A stretch of DNA of 64,000 bases from Spirosoma linguale DSM 74 (GTDB taxonomy: Bacteria > Bacteroidota > Bacteroidia > Cytophagales > Spirosomataceae), in the NCBI GenBank assembly GCA_000024525.1, contig CP001769.1, forward strand, positions 930,001 to 994,000. Reading direction: 5' to 3'. The notes beneath the pieces are model-generated. The model searched no databases. It worked only from the letters and a program-made list of their open reading frames with translations, and had not been told where the DNA came from. Position numbers and translations under genes: made by a program. Shown here in pieces: positions 7,898 through 19,349 of this stretch (within the stretch, counting starts at the first letter, position 1; the number at the start of each line of letters is the position of its first letter).

Positions 7898-8269
7898 TCA
7901 AAACCTTTTTGATTTGCTATCATCCTTTATGGGTAAGTCGCCCTTGCCATATGCCTTCCAGGTTGCCTGCAAATAGCGAATATAACGGCTTAAAAAAGTA
8001 ATCTTTACTTCCTGTTCCTGTATTAGTCTGTCTTTTTCTTCGGCCTCTGTAGCGTGCGTATCCGGCTCATTGATTAGATGGTAGTTTGCCAGCGTCTCGG
8101 GCGTAGTGCCCAGGGCATCGGCCAGTTGTGCTAACCGCTTAACGCAGGCGAGGCTATTGCGTTCGAGCCGGTTGTAGGTAGGCTGGCTCATGCAAAGCCT
8201 ATCGGCCATATATTCCTGAGATAGGCCTTTCTCTTTTCGAACTTGTTTGACGTTAGCGGATAGAGTCAT
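7898..8269 (-). CDS. XRE-family helix-turn-helix regulator
   Basis: DNA-binding protein of 123 residues. An HTH_3 domain fills residues 5-62 (VRKEKGLSQEYMADRL, then SQPTYNRLERN as recognition helix region). It is followed by a charged segment that is probably helical (EAEEKDRLIQEQEVKITFLSRYIRYL), likely for dimerisation. It is divergent from the peptide-export locus. The 268-base gap between them holds a helically phased repeat array at 8441-8489, so this protein is the obvious candidate regulator of that locus or of itself. That link is inference. Confidence 0.85.
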   Translation of the reverse strand: MTLSANVKQVRKEKGLSQEYMADRLCMSQPTYNRLERNSLACVKRLAQLADALGTTPETLANYHLINEPDTHATEAEEKDRLIQEQEVKITFLSRYIRYLQATWKAYGKGDLPIKDDSKSKRF

Positions 8270-8410: not shown

Positions 8411-8425
8411 GGGGGGGGGAGGGGG
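8411..8425. repeat. Poly-G tract
   Basis: Nine consecutive G, one A, then five more G, in the AT-rich gap between the XRE gene and the peptide-export locus. Such tracts can change length by slipped-strand mispairing. The tract is 16 bases upstream of the TGAATAA array. Confidence 0.8.
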
Positions 8426-8440
8426 TATTGGCTATACTTA

Positions 8441-8489
8441 TGCATAAAATTGAATAAAAAATGAATAAAGTTGAATAAAAAGTGAATAA
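8441..8489. promoter_or_regulatory. Five helically phased TGAATAA repeats, putative operator array
   Basis: Heptamers start at 8441 (TGCATAA, one mismatch), 8451, 8462, 8472 and 8483 (all TGAATAA). The spacing of 10, 11, 10 and 11 bases puts every copy on the same face of the helix. The array ends 48 bases before the first gene of the peptide locus and lies next to a divergent XRE regulator. A CACCTTTG at 8510-8517 is one base off the Bacteroidota -7 consensus TAnnTTTG and could be the promoter served by the array. Confidence 0.6.
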
Positions 8490-8537
8490 CAATTAGCCAG
8501 TTATTACTGCACCTTTGAGCCATCAACTGCTTTAGGC

Positions 8538-9053
8538 ATGGCTTTCTTCGATACATTTTTTACGCCAACAGACGAGAATGCAAGTGCTTCGCTTTACGCA
8601 CTCCTGAAAAGATTACGGGTTAAGGTAACGCGGGCAACGGTGCGGGAGTCGCTGGAGCAACACCCTGACTTCCCTAGCTTACTGAGCCTGAGTGATGTGC
8701 TCAATGACTGGCAGGTTGAGAGTATGGGCTTACAACTCAACACCGTCGAACAACTCCGCGAACTTACTCTGCCGTTTATAGCTCATCTGCGAAAAAACAA
8801 TGGCTGGTATGTGCTGGTAACAGCCCTGCAAGGTGATACAATTACCTATACTGATAATGAACAGGGACGAAGGGCTGAATCACTCACGGATTTTGAAAAG
8901 AACTGGTCGGGAGTCGTATTGCTGGCAGAATACCGCCCAGCAGAGTTCGACCCTGCCGAGAAGAATCAACAAGCTGGTGAAGTGGATTATGCCGAAAAGC
9001 ATAAACTGGAACTACTGGAAAATCTGCGTGGCCCGTTTGTACTGGCTGGCTAG
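8538..9053 (+). CDS. C39-peptidase-like protein lacking catalytic Cys; probably the split N-terminal half of a VKOR fusion
   Basis: The protein has 171 residues. Residues 10-130 resemble a C39-type papain fold (LYALLKRLRVKVTRATVRESL, HPDFPSLLSLSDVL, LPFIAHLRKNNGWYVLV), but there is no Cys anywhere, so it cannot be an active C39 peptidase and may only bind leaders. The frame ends FVLAG-stop. Skipping the single T at 9051 would continue directly into the transmembrane helix of the next frame (FVLAG-SLLLITGLVLLS). As I recall, homologous proteins of this type are one continuous chain of C39-like, VKOR and thioredoxin domains. This is therefore an authentic frameshift, a sequence error, or a split gene pair. 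Confidence 0.75.
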   Translation: MAFFDTFFTPTDENASASLYALLKRLRVKVTRATVRESLEQHPDFPSLLSLSDVLNDWQVESMGLQLNTVEQLRELTLPFIAHLRKNNGWYVLVTALQGDTITYTDNEQGRRAESLTDFEKNWSGVVLLAEYRPAEFDPAEKNQQAGEVDYAEKHKLELLENLRGPFVLAG

Positions 9054-10230
9054 CCTGCTGCTCATTACTGGGCTTGTACTCTTGAGTATAAGGCAAAATC
9101 TTACATGGCCAGATTGTTTTCTGCTGCTAACAAAAACGATTGGCTTTACACTCAGTGGCTTATTAGTAGCCAAACAGCTAGGCAGTAAAAATGCCTTCAC
9201 CGACCGCTTATGCCGGATCAATAGCAAAACCAGTTGCGACAATGTTCTGAACTCACCAGCCGCCAAACTCTGGGGCTGGCTTAGCTGGGCCGACATCGGC
9301 TTGCTCTACTTTGCGGGTGGCCTGCTCACCCTATTGGTGAGCCCCCTAGATCCCAAAGGGGGTGTTTTCTTCCCGACGAGTAGACCCTTGTTAAATGGGC
9401 TTGCGTTATTGGCCGTTCCGTATACCTTGTTTTCGGTTTATTATCAGGCCCGTGTGGTGCGGCAGTGGTGCTCCCTGTGTTTGGGTGTACAGGTAATCTT
9501 GTTGGGTGAGGGCATAATAGCCATCTCCGAACGAAGCACACTACCTACGGTTGTAGCCCCTTACTTGCTCCTGATGACCGCTTTTCTGCTACCGATAATA
9601 GCCTGGGTGCTTATTAAACCGGTATTGTTAACCGCTCAAAAAAGCCGCCGGGAACATGACGAACTGATGCGTTTTAAGCGTAATCCTGCGTTGTTCCGGG
9701 CTATGCTGATGCAACAGCCCCAAATGCCGCCCATTCCTGCCGACCTGAACCCGATTTTGCTAGGCAACCCCAATGCCGAGCATACAATTACGGTAGTCAC
9801 GAATCCGTATTGTGGCCCTTGCGCTAAAACGCATAAAGACGTAGTGAAACTGCTTGACCGAAACAACAACCTGAACGCCAGAATTCTTTTTACCTGCGAT
9901 GGGGCCGATGGCCTTACAACTCAGGTGGCCATATACACAATGGCGCTGGCCGAACAGGGAAATGAATCAGTTGCGTTAACAGATTGGTATGAGCAGCCTG
10001 AAAAGAATGTTGATGCCTGGGCTAAAAAATATCCGGTAATAACCGATGCTGCGCGTTGGGTCGATGCGGCTAACCAGCAAAGAGACTGGTGTATGATGGC
10101 TGGCATTGTGGCTACGCCGACGGTGTATATAGACAGCTACCAACTGCCGACATTATATAAGCTGGATAGACTACAGTGGCTGATTAACGAGCTTGAACCG
10201 GTGCTTGATAACCAGCAACTACCTGTATGA
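8989..10230 (+). CDS. Membrane VKOR domain fused to a thioredoxin-like domain (disulfide formation)
   Basis: Predicted quinone-linked thiol oxidase. The ATG at 8989 is the best independent start; an in-frame GTG at 8833 lies deep inside the preceding gene. Counted from 8989 (413 residues), several membrane segments fill residues 12-220. VKOR-type cysteines are C75 and C83 (LCRINSKTSC) plus CSLC at 161-164. The thioredoxin domain follows with CGPC at 275-278 (NPYCGPCAKTHKD). The domain order is that of bacterial VKOR-Trx proteins, in which the VKOR oxidises the attached thioredoxin. It overlaps the upstream frame by 65 bases and the glycosyltransferase start by four (ATGA), implying translational coupling. 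Likely substrates are the exported Cys-containing peptides. Confidence 0.85.
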   Translation: MPKSINWNYWKICVARLYWLASLLLITGLVLLSIRQNLTWPDCFLLLTKTIGFTLSGLLVAKQLGSKNAFTDRLCRINSKTSCDNVLNSPAAKLWGWLSWADIGLLYFAGGLLTLLVSPLDPKGGVFFPTSRPLLNGLALLAVPYTLFSVYYQARVVRQWCSLCLGVQVILLGEGIIAISERSTLPTVVAPYLLLMTAFLLPIIAWVLIKPVLLTAQKSRREHDELMRFKRNPALFRAMLMQQPQMPPIPADLNPILLGNPNAEHTITVVTNPYCGPCAKTHKDVVKLLDRNNNLNARILFTCDGADGLTTQVAIYTMALAEQGNESVALTDWYEQPEKNVDAWAKKYPVITDAARWVDAANQQRDWCMMAGIVATPTVYIDSYQLPTLYKLDRLQWLINELEPVLDNQQLPV

Positions 10231-11561
10231 AAACGGCCCTGTTTATCATGTTTCCAGTGCCAAGCCATTACAACATTTGTTTTGGTTTTGCCGACAGTTT
10301 ACGCAAACAAGGGTATCGGGTCGTGTTCGCGGGTACGCCAAACTTACAAACACACATCGAAAGCCAGACATTCGAGTTCGTCAAGCTACCTTACATGCAG
10401 GAAATTGTTGTTGCTAACTGGCGTGTAGCCTTAGGGCTATTTATTGTAAGTAAGTTCGAGAAAAAAGATAAAAGGGTTCGTTACAGGGAATTTCTGACTT
10501 CGATTGATGCAGTTCAATACGTTTGCAAAACCATTTTGCCGAATGAGATTTATATTGATGAGCACTTAAACGTTTATTACTTACTACTCAAAGCAACCTA
10601 TCCGAATTGCACACTTGTCAATACAAAATTGCCTACGCATCGGGTGCTGGGCATACCGCCATTAACCTGTTCTCACCCCTTTCAGGATACTGCCAGGCAT
10701 CGACTTTATGCCTGGTGGCTGTGGCAACTGTTTATGTTAAAGTACTACTACGGAAGCTGGCGAAAGAAAATAGCCTTGCTGGGCGTCGATGAGCAACTTT
10801 TTTTACGGCGAGTTACGGCCAAAATGGGTATTCAACTCAATGCATACATCAATCCGTATAACCTGTTGCACGATGGGTTGGTGGATGTGCCGATCATTCA
10901 CCTGGTGCCGCGCGAACTGGAATATAGCTGGTACAAAATGGGGGCGAACGAGCAGTTTTTCTATCAGCCTTACCAACGTAAACCAGATCGAGACGATTCT
11001 CTATTTTGGGAACAAATAAAGCCCCTCTTAGACAAACGGGAAAGAGGAGAAATTCAATTGGTTTATGCCTCATTGGGTACACTAAGCGAAGGAAACACAA
11101 AGCCAGCTACCCTCTTTTTAAATAGATTGATTGCCGCTTTTAACGATTTGCCAACTACGCACCTGATCGTAGCAGATAAACGACTATTTGCAAATAAGCC
11201 CGAAAACAGTCCAGCCAATGTGCATATAGTTGACTGGGCACCGCAAACAGAGTTACTACCCTACTGCGATTTGATGATTACACACGGTGGTACAAACTCT
11301 ATTTTAGAATGTGTTCAAGCGGGTGTACGACTAGTAGCGTACCCGCTAAACCTAACTGCCGATCACCCTGGAAATACAGCCCGAATGGTGTCGAATGGTT
11401 GGGGAGAACAGGGAAACCTGCGTGGAGCAACTCAGTCAACAATCCGGCAGAAAATCAGCCAAATGCTGTCAGACTCCTCCTCAATTGAAAAGAGAAAACA
11501 AATACTAATGCCGCCGATCAATGATTGGCAACCGAAGATGGATTTGGCCAAATCAAGATAA
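10227..11561 (+). CDS. GT1-type (UDP-glycosyltransferase-like) glycosyltransferase
   Basis: GT-B fold enzyme of 444 residues with no signal peptide, so cytoplasmic. The N-terminal acceptor half begins ALFIMFPVPSHYNICFGFADSL, the usual opening of UGT/MGT enzymes. The C-terminal nucleotide-sugar half has DWAPQTELLPYCD from residue 336 and HGGTNSILE from residue 353, the core of the UGT signature. It is translationally coupled to the VKOR-thioredoxin gene and is followed 34 bases later by the first precursor peptide. In this context it may glycosylate the precursors, but a lipid or small-molecule acceptor is possible. Its last 17 codons are duplicated as untranslated remnants upstream of precursors 2 and 3. 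Confidence 0.82.
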   Translation: MKTALFIMFPVPSHYNICFGFADSLRKQGYRVVFAGTPNLQTHIESQTFEFVKLPYMQEIVVANWRVALGLFIVSKFEKKDKRVRYREFLTSIDAVQYVCKTILPNEIYIDEHLNVYYLLLKATYPNCTLVNTKLPTHRVLGIPPLTCSHPFQDTARHRLYAWWLWQLFMLKYYYGSWRKKIALLGVDEQLFLRRVTAKMGIQLNAYINPYNLLHDGLVDVPIIHLVPRELEYSWYKMGANEQFFYQPYQRKPDRDDSLFWEQIKPLLDKRERGEIQLVYASLGTLSEGNTKPATLFLNRLIAAFNDLPTTHLIVADKRLFANKPENSPANVHIVDWAPQTELLPYCDLMITHGGTNSILECVQAGVRLVAYPLNLTADHPGNTARMVSNGWGEQGNLRGATQSTIRQKISQMLSDSSSIEKRKQILMPPINDWQPKMDLAKSR

Positions 11562-11667
11562 ATAAAGGTGTTTCATTTAAACAAAATTTTCAGTCATGAA
11601 AAAAGTCTTAATGCAATTTGCAGGAAATCTGCTTTCAAAAGAGCAAATGAAGGTTGTTAAAGGTGGA
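11511..11667 (+). repeat. Precursor cassette repeat, copy 1 (glycosyltransferase 3' end through peptide leader)
   Basis: The segment covers the last codons of the glycosyltransferase (PPINDWQPK...LAKSR-stop), the 34-base gap and the 24-codon leader of peptide 1. Near-identical copies lie at 12737-12892 and 13643-13793. It contains two palindromes: GCCGATCA-A-TGATTGGC at 11513-11529 and GATTTGGCCAAATC about 12 bases later. Confidence 0.9.
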
Positions 11668-11874
11668 GGAGATACCTATGGGGGTAGTTATAGTGGGGAA
11701 AGCAATGGTAGTAGTAGTGGTGCTGCATTTTGTGTACGATTCGACACTAGTGATGGATGTGGATCTACTACAGTAAATTTTTCGGGAACTCAAGCTCAAG
11801 CGGTTAGTTACGCCGATCATCAAGTTGGAACTTCAGGTAATTACGGGTATAATATTACTTACGGAAAATGTTAA
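11596..11874 (+). CDS. Double-glycine leader precursor peptide 1
   Basis: Peptide of 92 residues. The leader is residues 1-24, ending LSKEQMKVVKGG, the double-glycine signal expected for the C39 exporter encoded downstream; it resembles the Bacteroidota GG-leader natural-product precursors. The predicted 68-residue core starts GDTYGGSYSG, continues Ser/Gly-rich, and has three Cys (AAFCV, DGCGS, and the last residue). The odd Cys count allows one disulfide plus one free thiol, or intermolecular pairing. No lanthipeptide, radical-SAM or cyclodehydratase gene lies nearby, so the plausible modifications are disulfides and perhaps sugar. The leader is shared with the precursors at 12821 and 13722, while the cores differ. 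Confidence 0.85.
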   Translation: MKKVLMQFAGNLLSKEQMKVVKGGGDTYGGSYSGESNGSSSGAAFCVRFDTSDGCGSTTVNFSGTQAQAVSYADHQVGTSGNYGYNITYGKC

Positions 11875-11960
11875 TTCTACTAGTACTCTTAGAGTTTTTT
11901 AGAGAATATAATTGTTGCTTATTTTAAAATACTAAGTGTAATATTCAGCATTTTGCTTTA

Positions 11961-12070
11961 ACTCTAAATATTTTTAAAATATTTAGAGTATCAATTTTGT
12001 TTTTTTAGATAAATTTTAAGTTAGATACCTTTCTATTGAAACTAATTTGTATTAGTTTCAATAGAAAGGT
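11961..12070 (+). terminator. Two consecutive stem-loops after precursor 1
   Basis: First hairpin: arms 11961-11973 and 11977-11989, 13 bp perfect, loop TTA, AT-rich. Second hairpin: arms 12027-12046 and 12051-12070, 20 bp perfect, loop TTGT, ending 18 bases before the start of the next gene. They probably terminate or stabilise the peptide mRNA and limit read-through into the thioredoxin-like gene. The rest of the 213-base gap is AT-rich without other signals I can see. Confidence 0.6.
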
Positions 12071-12088
12071 AAATTATGATATTGACTT

Positions 12089-12676
12089 ATGAGAATAACA
12101 TTGTTTTATCAACTGTTGTTAGGTTTACTCTTAGCGCTAAGCACTATAGAGAATTTAGCACTAGGACAGCAAAAAAAGCCAACCATTGTTTTTGTTGACC
12201 CTAATATATCAATCCAAAAGTGGATTGGAAAAAAAATGCCAATATTTAGACTTCAGGATAAACAAGGTAATGTTTATGATAATAAGTCTATTTTAGGAAA
12301 AGTGACTGTCTTTAATTTGTGGTCTATTCATTGTCATCCGTGTATAGTTGAATTTCCTATGCTGAACGGTTTAGTTGGTAAGTATTCTAAAGATAATATT
12401 ATTTTTTTAGCTCCAGCGCCTGAGTCAAGCGAACAGATAAATAATGCGATTAGTGTGGATAGTTTTAATTATACAGTTTTACCTGATGCCCAATCATTTT
12501 TTGATATAATGGGATTGGTTGGTTATCCTTATCATATCCTTGTAGATCGTAACGGTTTTATTCGATATATTCATATGGGAATCAAGAATCGAAAATCTGG
12601 AAAGGAAATAGCAATAACCGAGCTTCCACAAGTTATAGAGCATGAATTAAACGAGAAGGAGGCTGAGCAGAAATAG
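12089..12676 (+). CDS. Exported TlpA/redoxin-like thioredoxin-fold protein
   Basis: The protein has 195 residues. An N-terminal hydrophobic signal or anchor (FYQLLLGLLLALSTIENLALG) is followed by a TlpA-like domain at residues 45-180. The active-site motif is CHPC in FNLWSIHCHPCIVEFPML, and the cis-Pro loop is probably VGYPYHILVDRNGFI. CHPC is unusual: TlpA proteins mostly have CxPC with W before the first Cys, and here the preceding residues are SIH. The gene is much more AT-rich than the flanking backbone. Lying between precursors 1 and 2, it may reduce, isomerise or oxidise the exported peptide. It could alternatively be an immunity or partner protein of peptide 1. Confidence 0.78.
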   Translation: MRITLFYQLLLGLLLALSTIENLALGQQKKPTIVFVDPNISIQKWIGKKMPIFRLQDKQGNVYDNKSILGKVTVFNLWSIHCHPCIVEFPMLNGLVGKYSKDNIIFLAPAPESSEQINNAISVDSFNYTVLPDAQSFFDIMGLVGYPYHILVDRNGFIRYIHMGIKNRKSGKEIAITELPQVIEHELNEKEAEQK

Positions 12677-12736
12677 GAAAGTAGGCCATTGCTGACAAAA
12701 CCTTTTTTCTCTTAATCTGTAGTTAAGAGTATTTTT

Positions 12737-12892
12737 CTGCCAATCAATGATTGGCAACCGAAGACGTATTTGGCCAAATCAAGATAAATAAAGGCGTTTC
12801 ATTTAAACAAAATTTCAATCATGAAAAAATTCTTAATGCAGTTTGCAGGAGATCTGCTTTCAAAAGAACAAATGAAAGTAGTGAAGGGTGGT
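12737..12892 (+). repeat. Precursor cassette repeat, copy 2
   Basis: The copy starts with a remnant of the glycosyltransferase 3' end that still reads in frame as LPINDWQPKTYLAKSR-stop but has no start codon. It continues through the spacer and leader of peptide 2. It includes a 9-bp inverted repeat TGCCAATCA-A-TGATTGGCA at 12738-12756. Identity with copy 1 is high over about 155 bases. Confidence 0.9.
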
Positions 12893-13048
12893 GATAGTTA
12901 TGGGGGTACGTATGATGGAACGGGTCCAAGAATGATGTATTGCCGTTGTAATAATGGAACAACAATTACAACGGATACTTCCGCAACAGGTACTGACATA
13001 AGTAGTATTTGTGGTAATGCTGGCGTTTCTTACTGTACTACTGGATAA
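12821..13048 (+). CDS. Double-glycine leader precursor peptide 2
   Basis: Peptide of 75 residues. The leader (residues 1-24) differs from that of peptide 1 at two positions (V4F, N11D) and ends KVVKGG. The predicted 51-residue core begins DSYGGTYDGTG and carries four Cys, in YCRC, SICGNAG and SYCTTG, enough for two disulfides. The second half is Thr/Ser-rich (NNGTTITTDTSATGTD), offering hydroxyls to a glycosyltransferase. Its own upstream copy of the duplicated cassette may supply a promoter. A 12-bp stem-loop follows 20 bases after the stop. Confidence 0.85.
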   Translation: MKKFLMQFAGDLLSKEQMKVVKGGDSYGGTYDGTGPRMMYCRCNNGTTITTDTSATGTDISSICGNAGVSYCTTG

Positions 13049-13068
13049 TATGAGAGATATTATGGAAC

Positions 13069-13108
13069 CTATTTGCCTAACAGTAATCAATACTTTTTAG
13101 GCAAATAG
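13069..13108 (+). terminator. Stem-loop after precursor 2
   Basis: Arms CTATTTGCCTAA (13069-13080) and TTAGGCAAATAG (13097-13108) are perfectly complementary around a 16-base loop. It lies 20 bases past the stop of peptide 2 and 55 bases before the next start. There is no clear T run after it, so it may be an mRNA stabiliser or attenuator. Confidence 0.5.
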
Positions 13109-13163
13109 ACTCATTCTTTTAAAACAAAAAAATAGTGCTCTATTTAACTTAGTTTTTAAGATT

Positions 13164-13622
13164 ATGAAAAAGACGATTTTGTTGTTTGCTCTACTTTTTA
13201 GCCCTTCAATAGGCCTACTCTGGGCAAAAACAATCCAGAAAGATTCATTATCCAAGGACATTGGTAAGTTAGCGCCCATAGTTTTTCTCCATCAAAAGCG
13301 ATTGATGAACTGGCAGTCAGTCGATAGGAATACAAAATTAAAAGAATTTGAAATTTCTCTTGACTCAGCTCAAAAACAAATCCCACAGATAATCAGACAA
13401 AGCCTTTTTATTCAGCAAATGGAGGTTATGATTATCCGCGATGGTGATATGATTGCAAAAACATTTTGGCAAAAAGGCCAGCCCGATCCATTAAATAATT
13501 TTACTCAACTGATTAAGAAAGGAGACCGATATATTATTGAGTTTACATTTGCTATGGAAGACAGTAGTGGTAATATAATTGCTTTAAAGAATAAGCCGGT
13601 ATTTAATCTTCCATTGCTTTGA
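13164..13622 (+). CDS. Exported protein of unknown function, weak resemblance to a GldM C-terminal domain
   Basis: The protein has 152 residues with a clear signal peptide (KKTILLFALLFSPSIGLLWA). The mature part has no Cys. Segments DIGKLAPIVFLHQKRLMNW, LKEFEISLDSA and NFTQLIKKGDRYIIEFTFAMEDSSGN recall the C-terminal beta-domain of the gliding/type IX secretion protein GldM (basic-GD-hydrophobic motif before a variable loop, then a final Leu-rich strand). That resemblance is weak and from memory. It sits alone between precursor 2 and precursor 3 in an AT-rich stretch, so it could be a periplasmic partner or immunity protein for peptide 2. Confidence 0.6.
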   Translation: MKKTILLFALLFSPSIGLLWAKTIQKDSLSKDIGKLAPIVFLHQKRLMNWQSVDRNTKLKEFEISLDSAQKQIPQIIRQSLFIQQMEVMIIRDGDMIAKTFWQKGQPDPLNNFTQLIKKGDRYIIEFTFAMEDSSGNIIALKNKPVFNLPLL

Positions 13623-13642
13623 AAGAAAAAACAAGTGATAAC

Positions 13643-13793
13643 GCGCCGATCATTGATTGGCAACTGAAACCGGATTTGGCCGAATCATAATAGATTAATC
13701 ATTTTTAAACATATTTCAGTCATGAAAAAAGTCTTAATGCAATTTGCAGGAAATCTGCTTTCAAAAGAGCAAATGAAGGTTGTTAAAGGGGGG
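13643..13793 (+). repeat. Precursor cassette repeat, copy 3
   Basis: The glycosyltransferase 3' remnant reads APIIDWQLKPDLAES-stop in frame but has no start codon. It is followed by a slightly shortened spacer and a leader identical in protein sequence to that of peptide 1. The palindrome here is GCCGATCA-T-TGATTGGC at 13645-13661: the centre base differs from copies 1 and 2 but both arms are kept. Confidence 0.9.
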
Positions 13794-13979
13794 ACAGATA
13801 CTTATGGCGGTATCTATAGCGGAGATAGTAGTGGAAGCGGTAGTTGCGGAGCAAAATGCTATTGGCCTGGTGGTGGTGGTGATTCACAATGGAACCTGTC
13901 TATGGAAAAGGCTAAAAATGCTGCGCTCGATTGTGCCCTAAGTGGAGGCCGAGGTTATTGGTGTTGTGCTTCTTGTTAA
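13722..13979 (+). CDS. Double-glycine leader precursor peptide 3
   Basis: Peptide of 85 residues. The leader is identical to that of peptide 1. The predicted 61-residue core begins TDTYGGIYSGDSSGSG and contains six Cys: GSCGAKC, one in ALDCAL, and a C-terminal cluster WCCASC, enough for three disulfides. A Gly run (PGGGGDSQW) and an amphipathic Ala/Lys segment (MEKAKNAALDCAL) precede the Cys cluster, giving it a bacteriocin-like look. A GC-rich stem-loop follows eight bases after the stop. It is the last precursor before the 471-residue thioredoxin-like gene and the exporter. Confidence 0.87.
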   Translation: MKKVLMQFAGNLLSKEQMKVVKGGTDTYGGIYSGDSSGSGSCGAKCYWPGGGGDSQWNLSMEKAKNAALDCALSGGRGYWCCASC

Positions 13980-13987
13980 AGTTTAAC

Positions 13988-14009
13988 AGCCGCCCTTAAT
14001 TGGGCGGCT
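13988..14009 (+). terminator. GC-rich stem-loop after precursor 3
   Basis: Arms AGCCGCCC and GGGCGGCT pair perfectly around TTAATT, in an otherwise AT-rich stretch. It is eight bases after the peptide 3 stop and ten bases before the next ATG. It probably reduces transcription of the downstream export genes relative to the peptide. Confidence 0.65.
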
Positions 14010-14019
14010 ATTTACAATT

Positions 14020-15435
14020 ATGAAAATAGATATATCAAATCCCTACCCATTAATATTGGCTTACTTACTCTATATAGGCCACCAAAACTTAAGCGCCAAA
14101 AATATTATTCCTCATCCAGAGGAGCCTAATTGTTATTTGGATTCGATTAAAATTATTGTAAATAAAAAGAAACAGAAGAGTCAGTTAGAGTTTGAAGATT
14201 ATTTCGGAAATAAACTAACGTTACAAAAAGGTGAAAATGTACTATTTGCGCCACTAATAATAAAAGATGTAGATTGGCGTCATCAAACTAAATTTATTTT
14301 TGATAAACCAATAGCATTAATGCAGTTTATTCAGAATGATCAGGGGTATTGGTGCATTAAAGCCGGGAATGATAATCTTGATAAAGAATTTAATTTTGAC
14401 GTACATTATAGACAAGAAATTTCTCCAATTTTAACTAGTGGATGGGCTAGGTTGAAGTTTGTCAATGCAAACTACATGCAAGATGTACAAAAAAGAAAAA
14501 ATGATATTGATAAGTACTTTAGTGTAAAAGGCGATTATTTAAATTCTTATGCTAGTAAGTATGGATTATCTCGTAGTTTTATTACAAAATGGCAAACTAT
14601 AATTAAATACGAGAAGCTATCTAGTATGCTTTTTGTTGGGAGTAATTATCAAAAATGGCCTAAATTGTATTTGACGGAATTAAATAAAATCATTTATGAG
14701 TTTAATGACGATTACTTATACTTGTCTGATTACAGAGAGGGATGTATACAGTTGCTTCACTTGAAAGCCTTTTTAATGCTGGGTAAAGATGTTACATTAA
14801 GCCAATACTATGAACTTGCCGAACGAAGCTATACGGGAAAAACTAAAGAATATATATTGCTTACACTTTTGTTACAATCGCAAGATAAGTATTCAGATAT
14901 TAAAACAACTAACTTTGAATACGGCAAATTGGTTAAGAAGTATTTAGGTAGTTGTCAAGTAAAAGAATTCTGTGAGTATTTGTCTAAAAGTAAATTGCCC
15001 AATAAAATAAATACTTACAATTATCAGCTATTAAATATTGATAGAAAACAAGTTGACTTTTCGGAAATTACTAAACAAGCCACTATTAATTATATTGATT
15101 TTTGGGCTTCGTGGTGTGTGCCTTGTCGGGCTGAAATGCCTGATTCTAAAAAGCTAAGTGAAGAATATACGGCTAAAGGGATAAACTTTATTTATATATC
15201 AATAGATGAAAATTCGGCTGCCTGGGAGCGAGCAATGAATCAGATCGGTCTGCCAAAGAAAAATAGCTTTTTATTGCCTTACTTTAAGAAATCGCAGCTA
15301 TATAAAAAATATAATATTTCTACTATTCCCCGCTATTTATTGATTGATAAACAGGGGAATTTAATTAGTGATGATGCACCTCGCCCAAGTGATCCAAAGA
15401 TTAGAGAAAAACTTAATAACCTATTGAAAAAGTAG
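14020..15435 (+). CDS. Exported protein with C-terminal TlpA-like thioredoxin domain
   Basis: The protein has 471 residues. A short hydrophobic N terminus (PLILAYLLYIGHQNLSA) may be a signal peptide. Residues 40-330 have no recognised domain, are Lys/Tyr-rich and probably helical in the second half. The thioredoxin domain covers about residues 340-470, with CVPC in YIDFWASWCVPCRAEMP and the cis-Pro loop IPRYLLIDKQGNL. This layout matches Bacteroidota TlpA-like lipoproteins with long N-terminal regions, although no lipobox is seen. The gene is strongly AT-rich and five bases upstream of the exporter, so it is co-transcribed with it. The likely role is thiol-disulfide exchange on exported peptides. 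Confidence 0.8.
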   Translation: MKIDISNPYPLILAYLLYIGHQNLSAKNIIPHPEEPNCYLDSIKIIVNKKKQKSQLEFEDYFGNKLTLQKGENVLFAPLIIKDVDWRHQTKFIFDKPIALMQFIQNDQGYWCIKAGNDNLDKEFNFDVHYRQEISPILTSGWARLKFVNANYMQDVQKRKNDIDKYFSVKGDYLNSYASKYGLSRSFITKWQTIIKYEKLSSMLFVGSNYQKWPKLYLTELNKIIYEFNDDYLYLSDYREGCIQLLHLKAFLMLGKDVTLSQYYELAERSYTGKTKEYILLTLLLQSQDKYSDIKTTNFEYGKLVKKYLGSCQVKEFCEYLSKSKLPNKINTYNYQLLNIDRKQVDFSEITKQATINYIDFWASWCVPCRAEMPDSKKLSEEYTAKGINFIYISIDENSAAWERAMNQIGLPKKNSFLLPYFKKSQLYKKYNISTIPRYLLIDKQGNLISDDAPRPSDPKIREKLNNLLKK

Positions 15436-15440
15436 CCCTT

Positions 15441-17924
15441 ATGCCCACCTTCCCTCATTACACCCAACTCGACCAAATGGACTGCGGCCCTACCTGCCTG
15501 CGCATGGTGGCCAAGCACTATGGTCGCTCGTACAGCGTGCAGAGCTTGCGCGCGAAATCGCAGATTGGGAAAGAGGGGGTGTCGTTGTTGGGGATTTCGG
15601 AAGCGGCTGAGGCTATTGGTTTCAGAACGATGGGCGTTAAGATCCCGTTTGAGAAACTGGTTTCAGAAGCTCCGTTACCCTGTGTGGTGCATTGGGACCA
15701 GAATCATTTTGTGGTGGTTTATGCCATTAAAGGGGGGGCGGGCGGGTGGATGAGCCGAATTAAAGGGGGACGAACAAGCCCCCCGCGGCAAGCTGAAAAT
15801 CCGCTGGTTTTGGATAATGATGCAAGACATCAGCCGCTCATTCAGGATTTTCGAATACAGGAAGGGGAGCTTATCATTCCGCCTAAAGAATGGACCGAGT
15901 CTCCACCGTCAGGACACCTGGCTACCTCCACTACGCCTAAAGGCACCGTTTATGTAGCCGACCCCGGCAAAGGGCTGGTGACCTATTCGGCAGCGGAGTT
16001 TTGCCAACACTGGCTGTCGTCGCAGGCAATGGGAGCAGCGGAAGGGGTTGTTCTCTTGCTGGAGCCCACACCGGCTTTTTTTGAGCAGGACGATGAGCCT
16101 GCGCCAACCTATAGTTTTGAGCGGGTAGGGGCCTATCTCTGGCAATACAAACGCCTGCTGGCGCAGCTCGCGCTGGGGCTGGCTGTTGGGAGTGGGTTGC
16201 AACTGTTGTTCCCGTTCCTGACCCAGTCGGTAGTGGATGTGGGCGTCAATACGCACAACCTGCCGTTTGTGTACCTGGTGCTGGGTGCTCAACTCATGCT
16301 CATGGGCGGGCGGCTATCGGTCGAGTTTATCCGAAGCTGGATTCTGCTGCACATTAGTACCCGTGTTAACCTCAGCATCCTGTCCGATTTTCTGATCAAG
16401 CTCATGAAGTTGCCTGTGTCGTTTTTCGATAGCAAGCAGTTTGGCGACATCATGCAGCGCATTGGTGACCACCATCGGATTGAAAGCTTTTTGACCGGAC
16501 AAACGCTGTCGGTGCTGTTTTCGATGGTTAATCTCCTGGTCTTTGGGGTGGTGCTGGCGCTATATAACCTGTCTATTTTTAGCATTTTCCTGCTGTCGAG
16601 TGTGCTGTATATGGGTTGGGTAATGCTGTTTCTGCGCCAACGCCGGAAACTGGATTATAAACGATTTGATGTGTCGGCCAAAAACCAGAGTAGCCTGGTG
16701 CAACTCATTCAGGGTATGCAGGAAATCAAGCTGGCCGGGGCCGAGCGGCCCATGCGCTGGGCGTGGGAGCGGCTACAGGCAAGGTTATTTCGTTTGCAAA
16801 TGAAGGGCATGGCCCTGAGTCAATATCAACAGGCGGGGGCTTTTGCCATCAACGAGGGTAAAAACATCTTCATCACGTTTCTGGCAGCACAGTCGGTTAT
16901 TAACGGGCAATTATCGCTGGGGGCCATGCTGGCTATGCAGCAAATTATTGGTCAATTAAACAGCCCCATTGAGCAGTTGATAGGTTTCGTACAGAGCTTG
17001 CAGGATGCCAAAATCAGCCTTGAGCGACTTAACGAAATTCATACCCTCGATGACGAAGAGCCTCCGGTCAACCCGTCGGATCGCTCCAACGGGCTAGTGT
17101 CAACTGCCAGTAACTTCCCTTTTGGAGCGGCCCGACGGGTCGGTGGGGGAACGTTACAACTAAACAACCTGTCGTTCCAGTATCCGGGGGCGGGCAATGA
17201 ACCCGTTTTGCAGGGTATCGACCTGGTTATTCCCGAGGGGAAAACAACGGCTATTGTGGGTATGAGCGGAAGTGGTAAAACTACCTTACTCAAACTATTG
17301 CTTCGTTTTTACGAACCCACCAAAGGTGACATTCGGGTAGGGGAGGGTGCCTTACGAAACATCAGTCACTCGTTTTGGCGAAGTCAGTGCGGAGTCGTCA
17401 TGCAGGATGGCTTTCTGTTTTCGGATACCATTGCCCGCAACATTGCCGTGGGTGCCGAGCGAATTGATGCCCGGAAGTTAGACCATGCCGTACAGGTGGC
17501 CAATCTGAGTACGTTTATCGACTCGTTACCATCAGGGCTACATACCAAAATCGGAGCTGAGGGTAGCGGCATCAGTCAGGGGCAGCGGCAACGGATTTTA
17601 ATTGCGCGAGCAGTTTATAAAGACCCGCACTATATTTTTTTCGACGAAGCCACCAACGCCTTAGACGCCAATAACGAAGCTACGATAGTGCAGAATCTGA
17701 ATGAATTTTTCCAGAGTAGCGCGGCCGATAAGCACTCCGAAACAAGCCAAACCCGGCGCACGGTGGTCATCGTAGCACACCGGCTCAGCACCGTTCGTCA
17801 CGCCAATCAGATCGTTGTGTTGGCAAAAGGCCATATTACCGAAGTGGGCACTCATGCCGAGCTGGTAGCCAATCGGGGTGATTACTGGCAACTGGTAAAG
17901 AATCAACTTGAGTTGAGTGTGTGA
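15441..17924 (+). CDS. Peptidase-containing ABC exporter (C39 domain, PCAT)
   Basis: Bifunctional inner-membrane exporter of 827 residues that cuts GG leaders and exports the cores. C39 domain: Cys15 in QMDCGPTC, His89 in QNHFVVVY, Asp174 in YVADPGKG, so all three catalytic residues are present. His and Asp are about 85 residues apart instead of the usual 16 or so, owing to an insert of roughly 68 residues (97-166) rich in Gly, Arg and Pro. The membrane domain spans about residues 235-520. The nucleotide-binding domain has Walker A GMSGSGKTT at 607, signature ISQGQRQR near 710 and Walker B IIFFDEATNALD-like sequence near 735. GC content returns to backbone level here. Confidence 0.93.
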   Translation: MPTFPHYTQLDQMDCGPTCLRMVAKHYGRSYSVQSLRAKSQIGKEGVSLLGISEAAEAIGFRTMGVKIPFEKLVSEAPLPCVVHWDQNHFVVVYAIKGGAGGWMSRIKGGRTSPPRQAENPLVLDNDARHQPLIQDFRIQEGELIIPPKEWTESPPSGHLATSTTPKGTVYVADPGKGLVTYSAAEFCQHWLSSQAMGAAEGVVLLLEPTPAFFEQDDEPAPTYSFERVGAYLWQYKRLLAQLALGLAVGSGLQLLFPFLTQSVVDVGVNTHNLPFVYLVLGAQLMLMGGRLSVEFIRSWILLHISTRVNLSILSDFLIKLMKLPVSFFDSKQFGDIMQRIGDHHRIESFLTGQTLSVLFSMVNLLVFGVVLALYNLSIFSIFLLSSVLYMGWVMLFLRQRRKLDYKRFDVSAKNQSSLVQLIQGMQEIKLAGAERPMRWAWERLQARLFRLQMKGMALSQYQQAGAFAINEGKNIFITFLAAQSVINGQLSLGAMLAMQQIIGQLNSPIEQLIGFVQSLQDAKISLERLNEIHTLDDEEPPVNPSDRSNGLVSTASNFPFGAARRVGGGTLQLNNLSFQYPGAGNEPVLQGIDLVIPEGKTTAIVGMSGSGKTTLLKLLLRFYEPTKGDIRVGEGALRNISHSFWRSQCGVVMQDGFLFSDTIARNIAVGAERIDARKLDHAVQVANLSTFIDSLPSGLHTKIGAEGSGISQGQRQRILIARAVYKDPHYIFFDEATNALDANNEATIVQNLNEFFQSSAADKHSETSQTRRTVVIVAHRLSTVRHANQIVVLAKGHITEVGTHAELVANRGDYWQLVKNQLELSV

Positions 17925-18053
17925 GTTTTTTTTGTCATGCTGGAACGCCAGCCCGGTGCCGAAGGAAGCATCTTCGGTAGCTAGCGTTAAATCTGCTGTA
18001 CCGAAGATGCTTCCTTCGGCACCGGGCTGGCGTTCCAGCATGATAAAAAAAAC
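17925..18053. repeat. Long near-perfect extragenic palindrome
   Basis: Arms 17935-17979 and 17999-18043 are perfectly complementary over 45 bp. After one mismatch they extend through eight T / eight A and one more pair, to about 55 bp. The loop is 19 bases. The element fills the whole gap between the exporter gene and the HlyD gene, its right end abutting the HlyD ATG. Each arm also contains a smaller nested inverted repeat (CCGAAG...CTTCGG). Confidence 0.95.
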
Positions 18054-19349
18054 ATGAATCCTGGTTCAGACTACTTTACCGAACTCCGCTCAGAGGAGGT
18101 GCAGGAACTTATGGCACGTTCGCCAGCCTGGCTACTTCGCTGGGGCATTCTGGTCGTGCTGTTGGTTGTCGCTCTGATCTTTTCAGGTGCCTGGGTGGTA
18201 CACTACCCTGATCTGGTACACGCGTCGTTTAAACTAACATCGACCAACGCACCCAAAGCCGTTTTAACCCATACCGATGGCAAGCTGGTTCGGTTGCTGG
18301 TGCAGGATGGGCAGCTTGTTGGGGCGGGCGATCAGGTAGCGTACCTCGAAAGCACAGCCAATCATGCCGATATTGTACGACTCTCTCAGGAATTGGCTAA
18401 GGCTTGGGGGTTGGCCAGTCGGGGCCACCTGGAAGCGTTAAACCAGTTGACGTTATCGAACTATAGCCAACTCGGTGAACTGCAAAATGCCTATCAGACC
18501 TTTGAACAGGCCCATATTCAGTTGAGGGCTTATCTGGCCAATGGATTTTATAGCCAGAAAAAGAAGTTGCTTCAACAGGAAATCGTTGATCTAACTTTAT
18601 TGGCCGACAACTTACGGACACAGCACCAGATTCAGGCACGCGATATGGCACTGGCGCAACAGGATTACGATATTCAGGCTCAACTGGCCCGTGATAAGGT
18701 TATTGCCCCGCTTGAGTTGACCCGCGAAGAGAGTAAAAATAATGCCCGAAAACTGCCGTTTCAGCAAACGGCGTCGGCCTTGATCAGTAACCTCACGGCC
18801 CAACGGGCTAAACAGAAAGAAATTCTGGAGTTAGACAAGCAGGTAGCCGAAGAGCGCGACAAGTTTCTACAGGCACTAAACACGCTGCAAAGTGCTGCCG
18901 ATGCCTGGAAACACAAATACATAGTAACGGCTCCGGTGAGTGGACGCCTTTCGTTTCAGGGAATGTTACAGGAAAATCAGTCTGTTTCGCTTAATCAGGA
19001 GCTATTCTACGTATCTCCGCTGAGCACCCACTACTACGGCGAACTACGTATTCCACAGCACAATTCAGGAAAAGTGGTGGTTGGGCAATCGGTATTGATA
19101 AAATTTAGCGGCTACCCCTATCAGGAGTTTGGGGCGGTACGGGGCCGCATTACCAAAATTGCCGATGTATCGCTTAAAGACAGCGTCTTTCTGGCCAGAG
19201 TTGCGTTGCCAACCAGGCTGCAAACGACCTATGGGAAACAATTAGCGTATAAAACCGGTATGTCGGCCTCGGCAGAAATCATTACTGAAGACAGCCGGCT
19301 ACTCGAAAAACTATTCTACCAGCTTCGGAAGGTGGGCAACGGGCAATAA
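18054..19349 (+). CDS. HlyD-family periplasmic adaptor of the peptide exporter
   Basis: Membrane fusion protein of 431 residues linking the PCAT to an outer-membrane channel. One transmembrane helix lies at about residues 27-47 (WGILVVLLVVALIFSGAWVV). It is followed by a half-lipoyl segment (LTHTDGKLVRLLVQDGQLVGAGDQVAYLES), a long coiled coil at about 100-285, and the second half of the lipoyl/barrel region (ITAPVSGRLSFQG-like, then RITKIADVSLKDSVFLARVAL). The order ABC exporter then HlyD is standard for double-glycine peptide export. No TolC-like channel is encoded in the window. The start codon directly abuts the palindrome. Confidence 0.9.
   Translation: MNPGSDYFTELRSEEVQELMARSPAWLLRWGILVVLLVVALIFSGAWVVHYPDLVHASFKLTSTNAPKAVLTHTDGKLVRLLVQDGQLVGAGDQVAYLESTANHADIVRLSQELAKAWGLASRGHLEALNQLTLSNYSQLGELQNAYQTFEQAHIQLRAYLANGFYSQKKKLLQQEIVDLTLLADNLRTQHQIQARDMALAQQDYDIQAQLARDKVIAPLELTREESKNNARKLPFQQTASALISNLTAQRAKQKEILELDKQVAEERDKFLQALNTLQSAADAWKHKYIVTAPVSGRLSFQGMLQENQSVSLNQELFYVSPLSTHYYGELRIPQHNSGKVVVGQSVLIKFSGYPYQEFGAVRGRITKIADVSLKDSVFLARVALPTRLQTTYGKQLAYKTGMSASAEIITEDSRLLEKLFYQLRKVGNGQ

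Follow-up and report, generated by a model that had tools for sequence, protein, structure and literature searches.

The bacteroidetocins (proposed class IIf; Coyne et al., 2019; PMC6671954) are among the described systems closest to a peptide operon that lies at positions 8538-19349 of a 64-kb stretch of Spirosoma linguale DSM 74 (positions 930001-994000 of contig C1, CP001769.1, in a genome of 8.49 Mb and nine contigs; hereafter the window). A sequence-only reading of this DNA had listed, in one block, a C39-like domain, a VKOR-thioredoxin protein, a GT1-type glycosyltransferase, three precursors with double-glycine (GG) leaders and 3, 4 and 6 Cys, two TlpA-like proteins, a peptidase-containing ABC transporter (PCAT) and an HlyD adaptor, and all of these are present. 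With moderate confidence we take the locus to serve the maturation and export of small Cys-rich peptides through docking, cytosolic oxidation, glycosylation and PCAT export. The evidence consists of gene content, conservation, dead C39 sites, active-site residues of the VKOR, thioredoxin and glycosyltransferase parts, co-occurrence, Cys parity and charge pattern.

Bacteroidetocin loci resemble the window in combining a GG leader, a Cys-containing core, a thiol oxidoreductase and a PCAT within a small Bacteroidota locus. They also encode a membrane protein with five predicted helices, deletion of which attenuates activity. The VKOR fusion described below has six predicted helices (a comparison by helix count alone), and bacteroidetocin leaders measure 15-16 aa against 24 aa in the window (cores are not part of this comparison). 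The main text (PMC6671954) does not contain the terms 'glycosyl', 'C39', 'VKOR' or 'HlyD'.

Glycocins (sublancin, glycocin F and Thg) also join a glycosyltransferase, thioredoxin-like proteins, a PCAT and a Cys-rich precursor, and the consulted part of their description (PMC12457901) names no VKOR or C39-like fusion. The window has GG-leader Cys-rich precursors, a PCAT and a thioredoxin-like pair (the two TlpA-like proteins), plus the VKOR-thioredoxin; none of the 13 window proteins scanned gave a GT2 match, which leaves it without a SunS-like enzyme, and GT2 genes do occur in related loci. Glycocin glycosyltransferases are GT2 enzymes of the SunS type, whereas the window's is a GT1 enzyme of the GT-B type, and the sugar of sublancin is S-linked to an unpaired Cys, whereas Cys counts here are mostly even. 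Glycocin membership was rejected on these two grounds. The proposal of the sequence-only reading, a Bacteroidota counterpart of the glycocins built from other enzymes, thus stands in that the glycosyltransferase, VKOR, precursors, PCAT and HlyD travel together, and fails as family membership.

Nine selected Bacteroidales clusters for ribosomally synthesized and post-translationally modified peptides share with the window the phylum, GG-type leaders, a PCAT in most and glycosyltransferases in 2/9 (PMC10352776). They have LanC-like genes and, unlike the window, radical SAM genes in eight cases and LanM in the other; the terms 'VKOR', 'vitamin K' and 'thioredoxin' are absent from the main text. 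As the sequence-only reading had stated, no radical SAM, LanM, YcaO or grasp match occurs among the 13 window proteins scanned. The bacterial VKOR-thioredoxin of structure 4nv2 has the same VKOR Cys relay and thioredoxin, whereas the fusion related to the window's genes adds an N-terminal C39-like domain and an extra helix and sits in peptide operons. At title and abstract level we found no description of a C39-like-VKOR fusion in a peptide operon; the glycocin clusters beyond Firmicutes of Singh and Rao (2021) may include related ones.

The C39-like-VKOR-thioredoxin fusion and its predicted orientation

The C39-like domain and the VKOR-thioredoxin form a single open reading frame (ORF) in 14 of the 16 loci examined. 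Their earlier treatment as separate parts is right for the window, where a frame break divides them, and wrong for most of its relatives; the usual single-gene form, the predicted inverted orientation and the phylum-wide spread are additions to the sequence-only reading. That reading had also called the domain Cys-less, and the catalytic Cys is indeed lost in the window and in 29 of 29 aligned rows, as is the catalytic His in all 29. Asn occupies the Cys site in 26 of 29 rows (an alignment-dependent count, 23 of 28 in another alignment), and the window has Asn and Trp at the Cys and His positions. PCAT C39 domains in the same alignment keep the His in 43 of 43 rows; these were selected by a pattern demanding CG, so that their Cys count arises by construction and the His is the independent control. 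The window's own PCAT keeps both residues in the alignment. We propose that the C39-like domain could act as a leader-docking module. Its VKOR-thioredoxin partner carries six redox Cys (a loop pair, the helix-4 CxxC and the thioredoxin CxxC). The window ORF has all six, 28 of 28 relatives keep them without exception, and so do 48 of 48 further rows (32 distinct, since these rows include genes fetched twice).

Ordinary VKORs have five hydrophobic segments and the fusion six. The additional segment separates the C39-like domain from VKOR helix 1 and is hydrophobic in 76 of 76 rows (60 distinct). A six-helix protein would have its C39-like domain and its thioredoxin on the same side of the membrane. 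The count of Lys plus Arg in canonically outside loops minus that in canonically inside loops averages +10.28 (range 7 to 14) across all 29 family rows, the window included, against -2.48 (range -7 to 7) in 27 VKORs without a C39-like domain (from 29 fetched loci, with L197 and L212 left out as fusions; several are close kin of one another). Among proteins not used to form the orientation idea, 32 of 32 distinct fusions score positive, with a minimum of 9, in a version of the score that counts two more segments (the stretch ahead of helix 1 and the loop that follows this helix). Thirty-one of these come from other families of the phylum and one, L122, from the window's own family, outside the alignment. 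The fusion is thus predicted to be mounted the opposite way round, with its active sites, C39-like domain and thioredoxin in the cytosol, and the extra helix and inverted charge pattern point to cytosolic oxidation of the leader-bound peptide before export. Hibender et al. are said to have described, in 2017, an Aeropyrum pernix VKOR in two compartments, whose cytosol-facing archaeal form would be a precedent.

Several observations weigh against this prediction or against the dead protease. Hydropathy and charge are the whole basis of the orientation call. Five of the 27 control VKORs score positive too; one of them, L206, has a hydrophobic stretch upstream as well and, at 7, equals the lowest fusion score. 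A hydropathy below 1.0 is seen for segment 3 in 3% of rows and for segment 4 in 5%. The alignment columns of the catalytic residues are gappy in the 32 distinct further fusions and show Cys in one row and His in one.

An ordinary orientation would place the VKOR sites and thioredoxin in the periplasm as in 4nv2, with peptides oxidised together with TlpA after crossing the inner membrane and the C39-like domain lying outside or serving as a passive tether. It draws on the alignment of the VKOR part with 4nv2 (E 0.0012), on the positively scoring controls, on the secreted-looking first TlpA-like protein (TlpA1) of the same run and on the dependence of bacteroidetocin loci on a thiol oxidoreductase, as given in the consulted part of PMC6671954. 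On this arrangement, however, the extra helix would require a domain of 150 aa to reach the outside with no signal-peptide-like start, and the charge pattern of the fusion is the reverse of that in most other VKORs. The PCAT-HlyD route, moreover, would carry the peptide past the periplasm, so that a periplasmic oxidase would be skipped and a cytosolic one makes sense. We regard the ordinary orientation as somewhat unlikely. Because TlpA1 and a 152-aa protein of the run look secreted, which counts against a wholly cytosolic scheme, part of the thiol chemistry is probably periplasmic.

The glycosyltransferase and the recurring gene run

The sequence-only reading had offered a neighbourhood check, the co-occurrence of glycosyltransferase and VKOR genes with GG-leader precursors, and the outcome supports it. 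Of the 222 family genomes, 64 gave a match to the fusion query and 59 to the window glycosyltransferase (both at E 1e-10). A glycosyltransferase match lies within 10 kb on the same contig at 47 of 82 fusion places (second pieces of counted genes and one thioredoxin-only row left out). Among the 150 PCAT matches listed, a glycosyltransferase lies within 12 kb of 28 of the 51 near a fusion, against 3 of the 99 not near one (Fisher p 2.5e-13, a value that ignores shared ancestry). One of the three exceptions, G195:C27, resembles one half of a broken locus, with the other half at the end of contig C20.

A map of 60 fetched loci (55 with the fusion) plus the window reveals a recurring run, with variations: helix-turn-helix (HTH) regulator, optional glycosyltransferase, C39-like-VKOR-thioredoxin, glycosyltransferase in the alternative position, precursor or precursors, TlpA, PCAT and HlyD. 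The window's gene order is repeated in several genera of the family, which argues that the combination is not due to chance. A contig scan with five close glycosyltransferases returned only two loci; the breadth reported here comes from the genome-wide search. Across the phylum a fusion profile matched 41 of 395 genomes, of which three belong to the window's family. Outside the family, 20 loci from 18 genomes were compared: BLAST found no GT1 gene in any of them, 13 have GG-type precursors and 13 a PCAT. GT1 is therefore, as far as this sample goes, an add-on of the window's family, and the other parts of the module are phylum-wide.

Some of the mapped loci have features of their own. L162 (214-8220), outside the family, contains 16 GG-leader ORFs by pattern, all with Cys, a large precursor set for one exporter. 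Four fusion loci (L108, L109, L119 and L121) stand beside LanB-type family genes (by Pfam on L119, by BLAST cluster on the others) and clusters named by eye as histidine-kinase-like and LytTR-like, a possible overlap with class I lanthipeptide systems. In L102, from the window's genus and without a glycosyltransferase, TlpA is separated from a second precursor, with a seemingly disrupted core, by two ORFs that look transposase-like by eye. On the S. oryzicola plasmid unnamed5 (181 kb; L034/L176) the operon adjoins a tyrosine recombinase gene and may be mobile in places.

The window glycosyltransferase also matches the NCBIfam MGT model (E 7e-23, below that model's curated cut-off), and its closest relative in the family sample is a S. 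radiotolerans enzyme (G198; 82% identity). In 25 aligned glycosyltransferases His14, His353, Gly355, Glu361 and Asp379 are invariant and Asp111 and Ser358 nearly so. We take His14 to be the N-terminal catalytic His and HGG..S..E to be the sugar-nucleotide motif. With these key residues conserved, the window enzyme looks catalytically competent.

Within the loci the gene mostly lies directly downstream of the fusion, as in the window, or directly upstream of it. Of 35 same-strand glycosyltransferase-VKOR pairs, 17 overlap by 1-50 nt (eight by exactly 4 nt, the window among them, where the start overlaps the VKOR stop as ATGA), 12 have gaps of 0-100 nt, five lie further apart and one overlaps by 55 nt, all as called from longest ORFs. 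A glycosyltransferase tree falls into two clades: one contains 18 rows with the gene upstream, and the other 13 with the gene downstream, two on the opposite strand and four stand-alone enzymes.

Other sugar-handling genes occur within 15 of the 35 same-strand GT1 runs, which strengthens a glycopeptide reading. They comprise GT2 genes of our families 6 and 11 (two GT2 in L035), a GT32-like gene in L095, and LicD and a cytidylyltransferase in L042; the GT2 assignments come from Pfam on L090, L098 and L033 and from BLAST clustering for other members, and the Pfam scans covered part of the unnamed run genes, alike in runs with and without GT1. In 19 family loci with a fusion and no GT1 gene, of which a part of the genes was scanned, a GT32-like gene was seen in L116; genes of uncharacterised families occur in L117 (DUF6625) and near four of these loci (DUF6734). 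A P. distasonis plasmid row combines the VKOR fusion with a 59-aa protein (6 Cys), DUF4369, a LanC-like protein, a galactosyltransferase-related protein, a family A glycosyltransferase and a PCAT.

Three findings speak against a glycosyltransferase devoted to the peptide. No glycosyltransferase match lies within 10 kb of 35 of the 82 fusion places. The four stand-alone enzymes (the whole stand-alone sample after frame and length selection) nest in the window's own clade and come from three genomes that have no fusion match, which weakens a strictly peptide-bound role. The name zeaxanthin glucosyltransferase is attached at source to 3 of 42 homologues. Together with the small-molecule substrates of the nearest named families and structures, these are what would be expected of an enzyme that never touches the peptide, glycosylates a lipid, a pigment or a self-protection target and merely hitch-hikes. 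Such an enzyme would, however, hardly overlap or adjoin VKOR in two arrangements, be nearly absent beside PCATs without a fusion and keep company with GT2, GT32-like, LicD and cytidylyltransferase genes inside the runs; we therefore judge hitch-hiking unlikely.

The window's copy: split fusion, precursors and companion genes

The window and L032 (S. radiotolerans), its nearest relative, are the two exceptions to the single-gene form among the 16 loci, both with a frame change at the linker. The window's break lies near 9037-9053, and that of L032 runs in a different direction, for which reason a programmed frameshift was rejected as the simplest reading of the junction. We infer a start for the window's VKOR-thioredoxin at ATG 8989 (the ORF list gives 8833), which would leave a basic N-terminus and the first helix intact. 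Decay of the window copy, with a split fusion that leaves the system non-functional in this strain, would account for both breaks. The split also counts against the maturation route proposed below, as does L032, where no usual start codon was seen by eye immediately ahead of the first helix. Of the VKOR columns conserved in at least 80% of relatives, however, the window keeps 45 of 46 and L032 46 of 46 (the relatives' own median is 0.90), and so the split VKOR bears no sign of decay. The other genes of the run are open, and two-gene versions occur elsewhere, in L097 (with an ATG) and on the P. distasonis plasmid (two overlapping coding sequences as annotated); further breaks are found in L177-L179. 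We find decay quite unlikely. The window's VKOR is the sole VKOR match in its genome.

The three window precursors share the leader MKK(V/F)LMQFAG(N/D)LLSKEQMKVVKGG. Their family matches are all weak and below curated cut-offs; the leader of precursor A is related to TIGR04149 (E 4e-4, under the cut-off). At the DNA level the leader of B is identical to that of A at 63 of 72 positions and that of C at 70 of 72, while the cores differ, and a 77-nt repeat precedes each precursor (Table 1). The arrangement suggests a duplicated cassette in which the leader was kept and the core changed. In L032 a 73-residue glycosyltransferase-like stretch lies ahead of the second precursor, as expected if the glycosyltransferase end and leader were duplicated there too. 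Perfect inverted repeats follow precursors A and B (12028-12069 with 19-nt arms and 13069-13108 with 12-nt arms) and are terminator-like.

Cys parity was counted in 104 distinct cores (42 from loci with the glycosyltransferase downstream or upstream, four from opposite-strand loci, 19 from loci without one and 39 from outside the family). These are pattern-found ORFs with a core of at least 25 aa, identical ones counted once, and some, those with 0 or 1 Cys, may be something other than precursors. The Cys number is even and nonzero in 96 cores, odd in six and zero in two. In glycosyltransferase-bearing loci the even cores amount to 18 of 19 with the gene downstream and 19 of 23 with it upstream (two odd, two without Cys), or 37 of the 40 that have any Cys. 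Such counts fit full pairing and would favour an O-linked over an S-linked sugar. Precursor A, one of the six odd cores, is a point on the other side. A sublancin-like sugar on an unpaired Cys would suit its 3 Cys and the joint presence of glycosyltransferase, thioredoxin-like proteins and PCAT in glycocin clusters (PMC12457901, in the part consulted), yet is most unlikely given the even counts just listed and the lack of a match between the window enzyme and GT2 families.

Two core motifs were considered as glycosyltransferase signatures and rejected. The motif (W/Y)CCxxC occurs in 12 of the 104 cores and describes a distinct peptide subfamily (L051, L086, L090, L091, L092, L094, L095, L096 with two, L098, L107 and window precursor C). 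As [WYF]CCxxC it is found in 9 of 23 cores of upstream loci, 2 of 19 of downstream loci, 0 of 4 of opposite-strand loci, 1 of 19 of loci without a glycosyltransferase and 0 of 39 outside the family, and is not diagnostic. YGGxY lies near the start of several cores, yet also occurs in L102, which has no glycosyltransferase.

The remaining genes of the window run complete the picture (Table 1). A divergent Cro/C1-type gene is the probable local regulator; HTH families 5 and 7 were seen in 15 and 9 mapped loci, respectively. Between this gene and the operon, positions 8411-8425 read nine G, one A and five G, a tract that is possibly length-variable. TlpA1 has a signal-peptide-like N-terminus by N-terminal hydropathy. 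The 152-aa protein belongs to our family 18, present in four loci including the window, and is a possible candidate for an immunity or accessory protein. Elsewhere in the same genome (G000) lie three further PCAT genes (C1:1062937, 1953289 and 5722150).

Table 1. Genes, precursors and repeats of the peptide operon, in window positions
Feature	Positions	Strand	Basis
HTH_3 (Cro/C1-type) regulator, divergent, probable local regulator	7898..8269	-	Pfam PF01381 E 6e-13
C39-like domain without catalytic Cys or His	8538..9053	+	PF03412 E 1.5e-17
VKOR-thioredoxin oxidoreductase, other frame	8989..10230	+	PF07884 E 1e-17, PF13462 E 3e-7
GT1-family (GT-B, UDPGT/MGT-like) glycosyltransferase	10227..11561	+	PF00201 E 9e-15
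77-nt repeat copy 1, 3' end of glycosyltransferase gene and stretch before precursor A	11513..11589	+	repeat search
Precursor A, 24-aa GG leader, 68-aa core, 3 Cys	11596..11874	+	translation
TlpA/ResA-like thiol-disulfide protein (CHPC), TlpA1	12089..12676	+	PF00578 E 7e-14
77-nt repeat copy 2, upstream of precursor B, 95% to copy 1	12739..12815	+	repeat search
Precursor B, 24-aa GG leader, 51-aa core, 4 Cys	12821..13048	+	translation
152-aa secreted-looking protein, no Pfam match	13164..13622	+	family 18
77-nt repeat copy 3, upstream of precursor C, 68% to copy 1	13645..13721	+	repeat search
Precursor C, 24-aa GG leader, 61-aa core, 6 Cys, ends YWCCASC	13722..13979	+	translation
TlpA-like protein, 471 aa, thioredoxin domain at C-terminus (CVPC)	14020..15435	+	PF13905 E 1e-16
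PCAT, C39 peptidase and ABC exporter	15441..17924	+	PF03412 E 4e-29, PF00664, PF00005
HlyD-family periplasmic adaptor	18054..19349	+	PF13437 E 4e-13

A proposed maturation route

The route that we infer covers docking, orientation, electron acceptor, step order, sugar transfer and linkage, and biological role. On the cytosolic side, the inactive C39-like domain would dock the GG leader of a precursor. The VKOR-thioredoxin, separately encoded in the window and with its active sites facing the cytosol, would then oxidise Cys pairs of the core and hand the electrons to menaquinone. GT1, presumably translationally coupled to VKOR, may add a sugar, for which O-linkage to Ser, Thr or Tyr is the most likely form. 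The leader would next pass to the active C39 domain of the PCAT, which would cleave after GG; export of the finished core would follow through HlyD and an outer-membrane channel whose gene lies elsewhere. Outside the inner membrane, disulfide quality may be the task of the TlpA-like proteins. Antagonism between bacteria would most likely be the biological role.

Two points weigh against this route: no TolC was noticed within the run, and product, glycan and disulfides are here predictions from sequence. In its most general form, the proposal is that a VKOR turned round by an added N-terminal helix and joined to a dead C39 protease provides leader-held cytosolic disulfide formation before PCAT cleavage across Bacteroidota, with GT1 acting on the same peptide in Spirosoma and its kin; we hold the chances for and against it to be evenly balanced. 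The dead C39 domain would then represent a protease fold turned into an element for leader recognition.

If the proposed route is correct, it would provide a testable path of maturation for a large group of Bacteroidota peptides and add a cytosol-facing, disulfide-forming VKOR in bacteria. It would also represent the reuse of a protease domain as a leader-binding module and a GT1-based route to glycosylated, disulfide-rich peptides. Should the five-helix protein of the bacteroidetocin loci prove related to the fusion, a candidate link, that gene would be explained as well. The C39-like-VKOR-thioredoxin combination offers a gene signature for finding such peptides.

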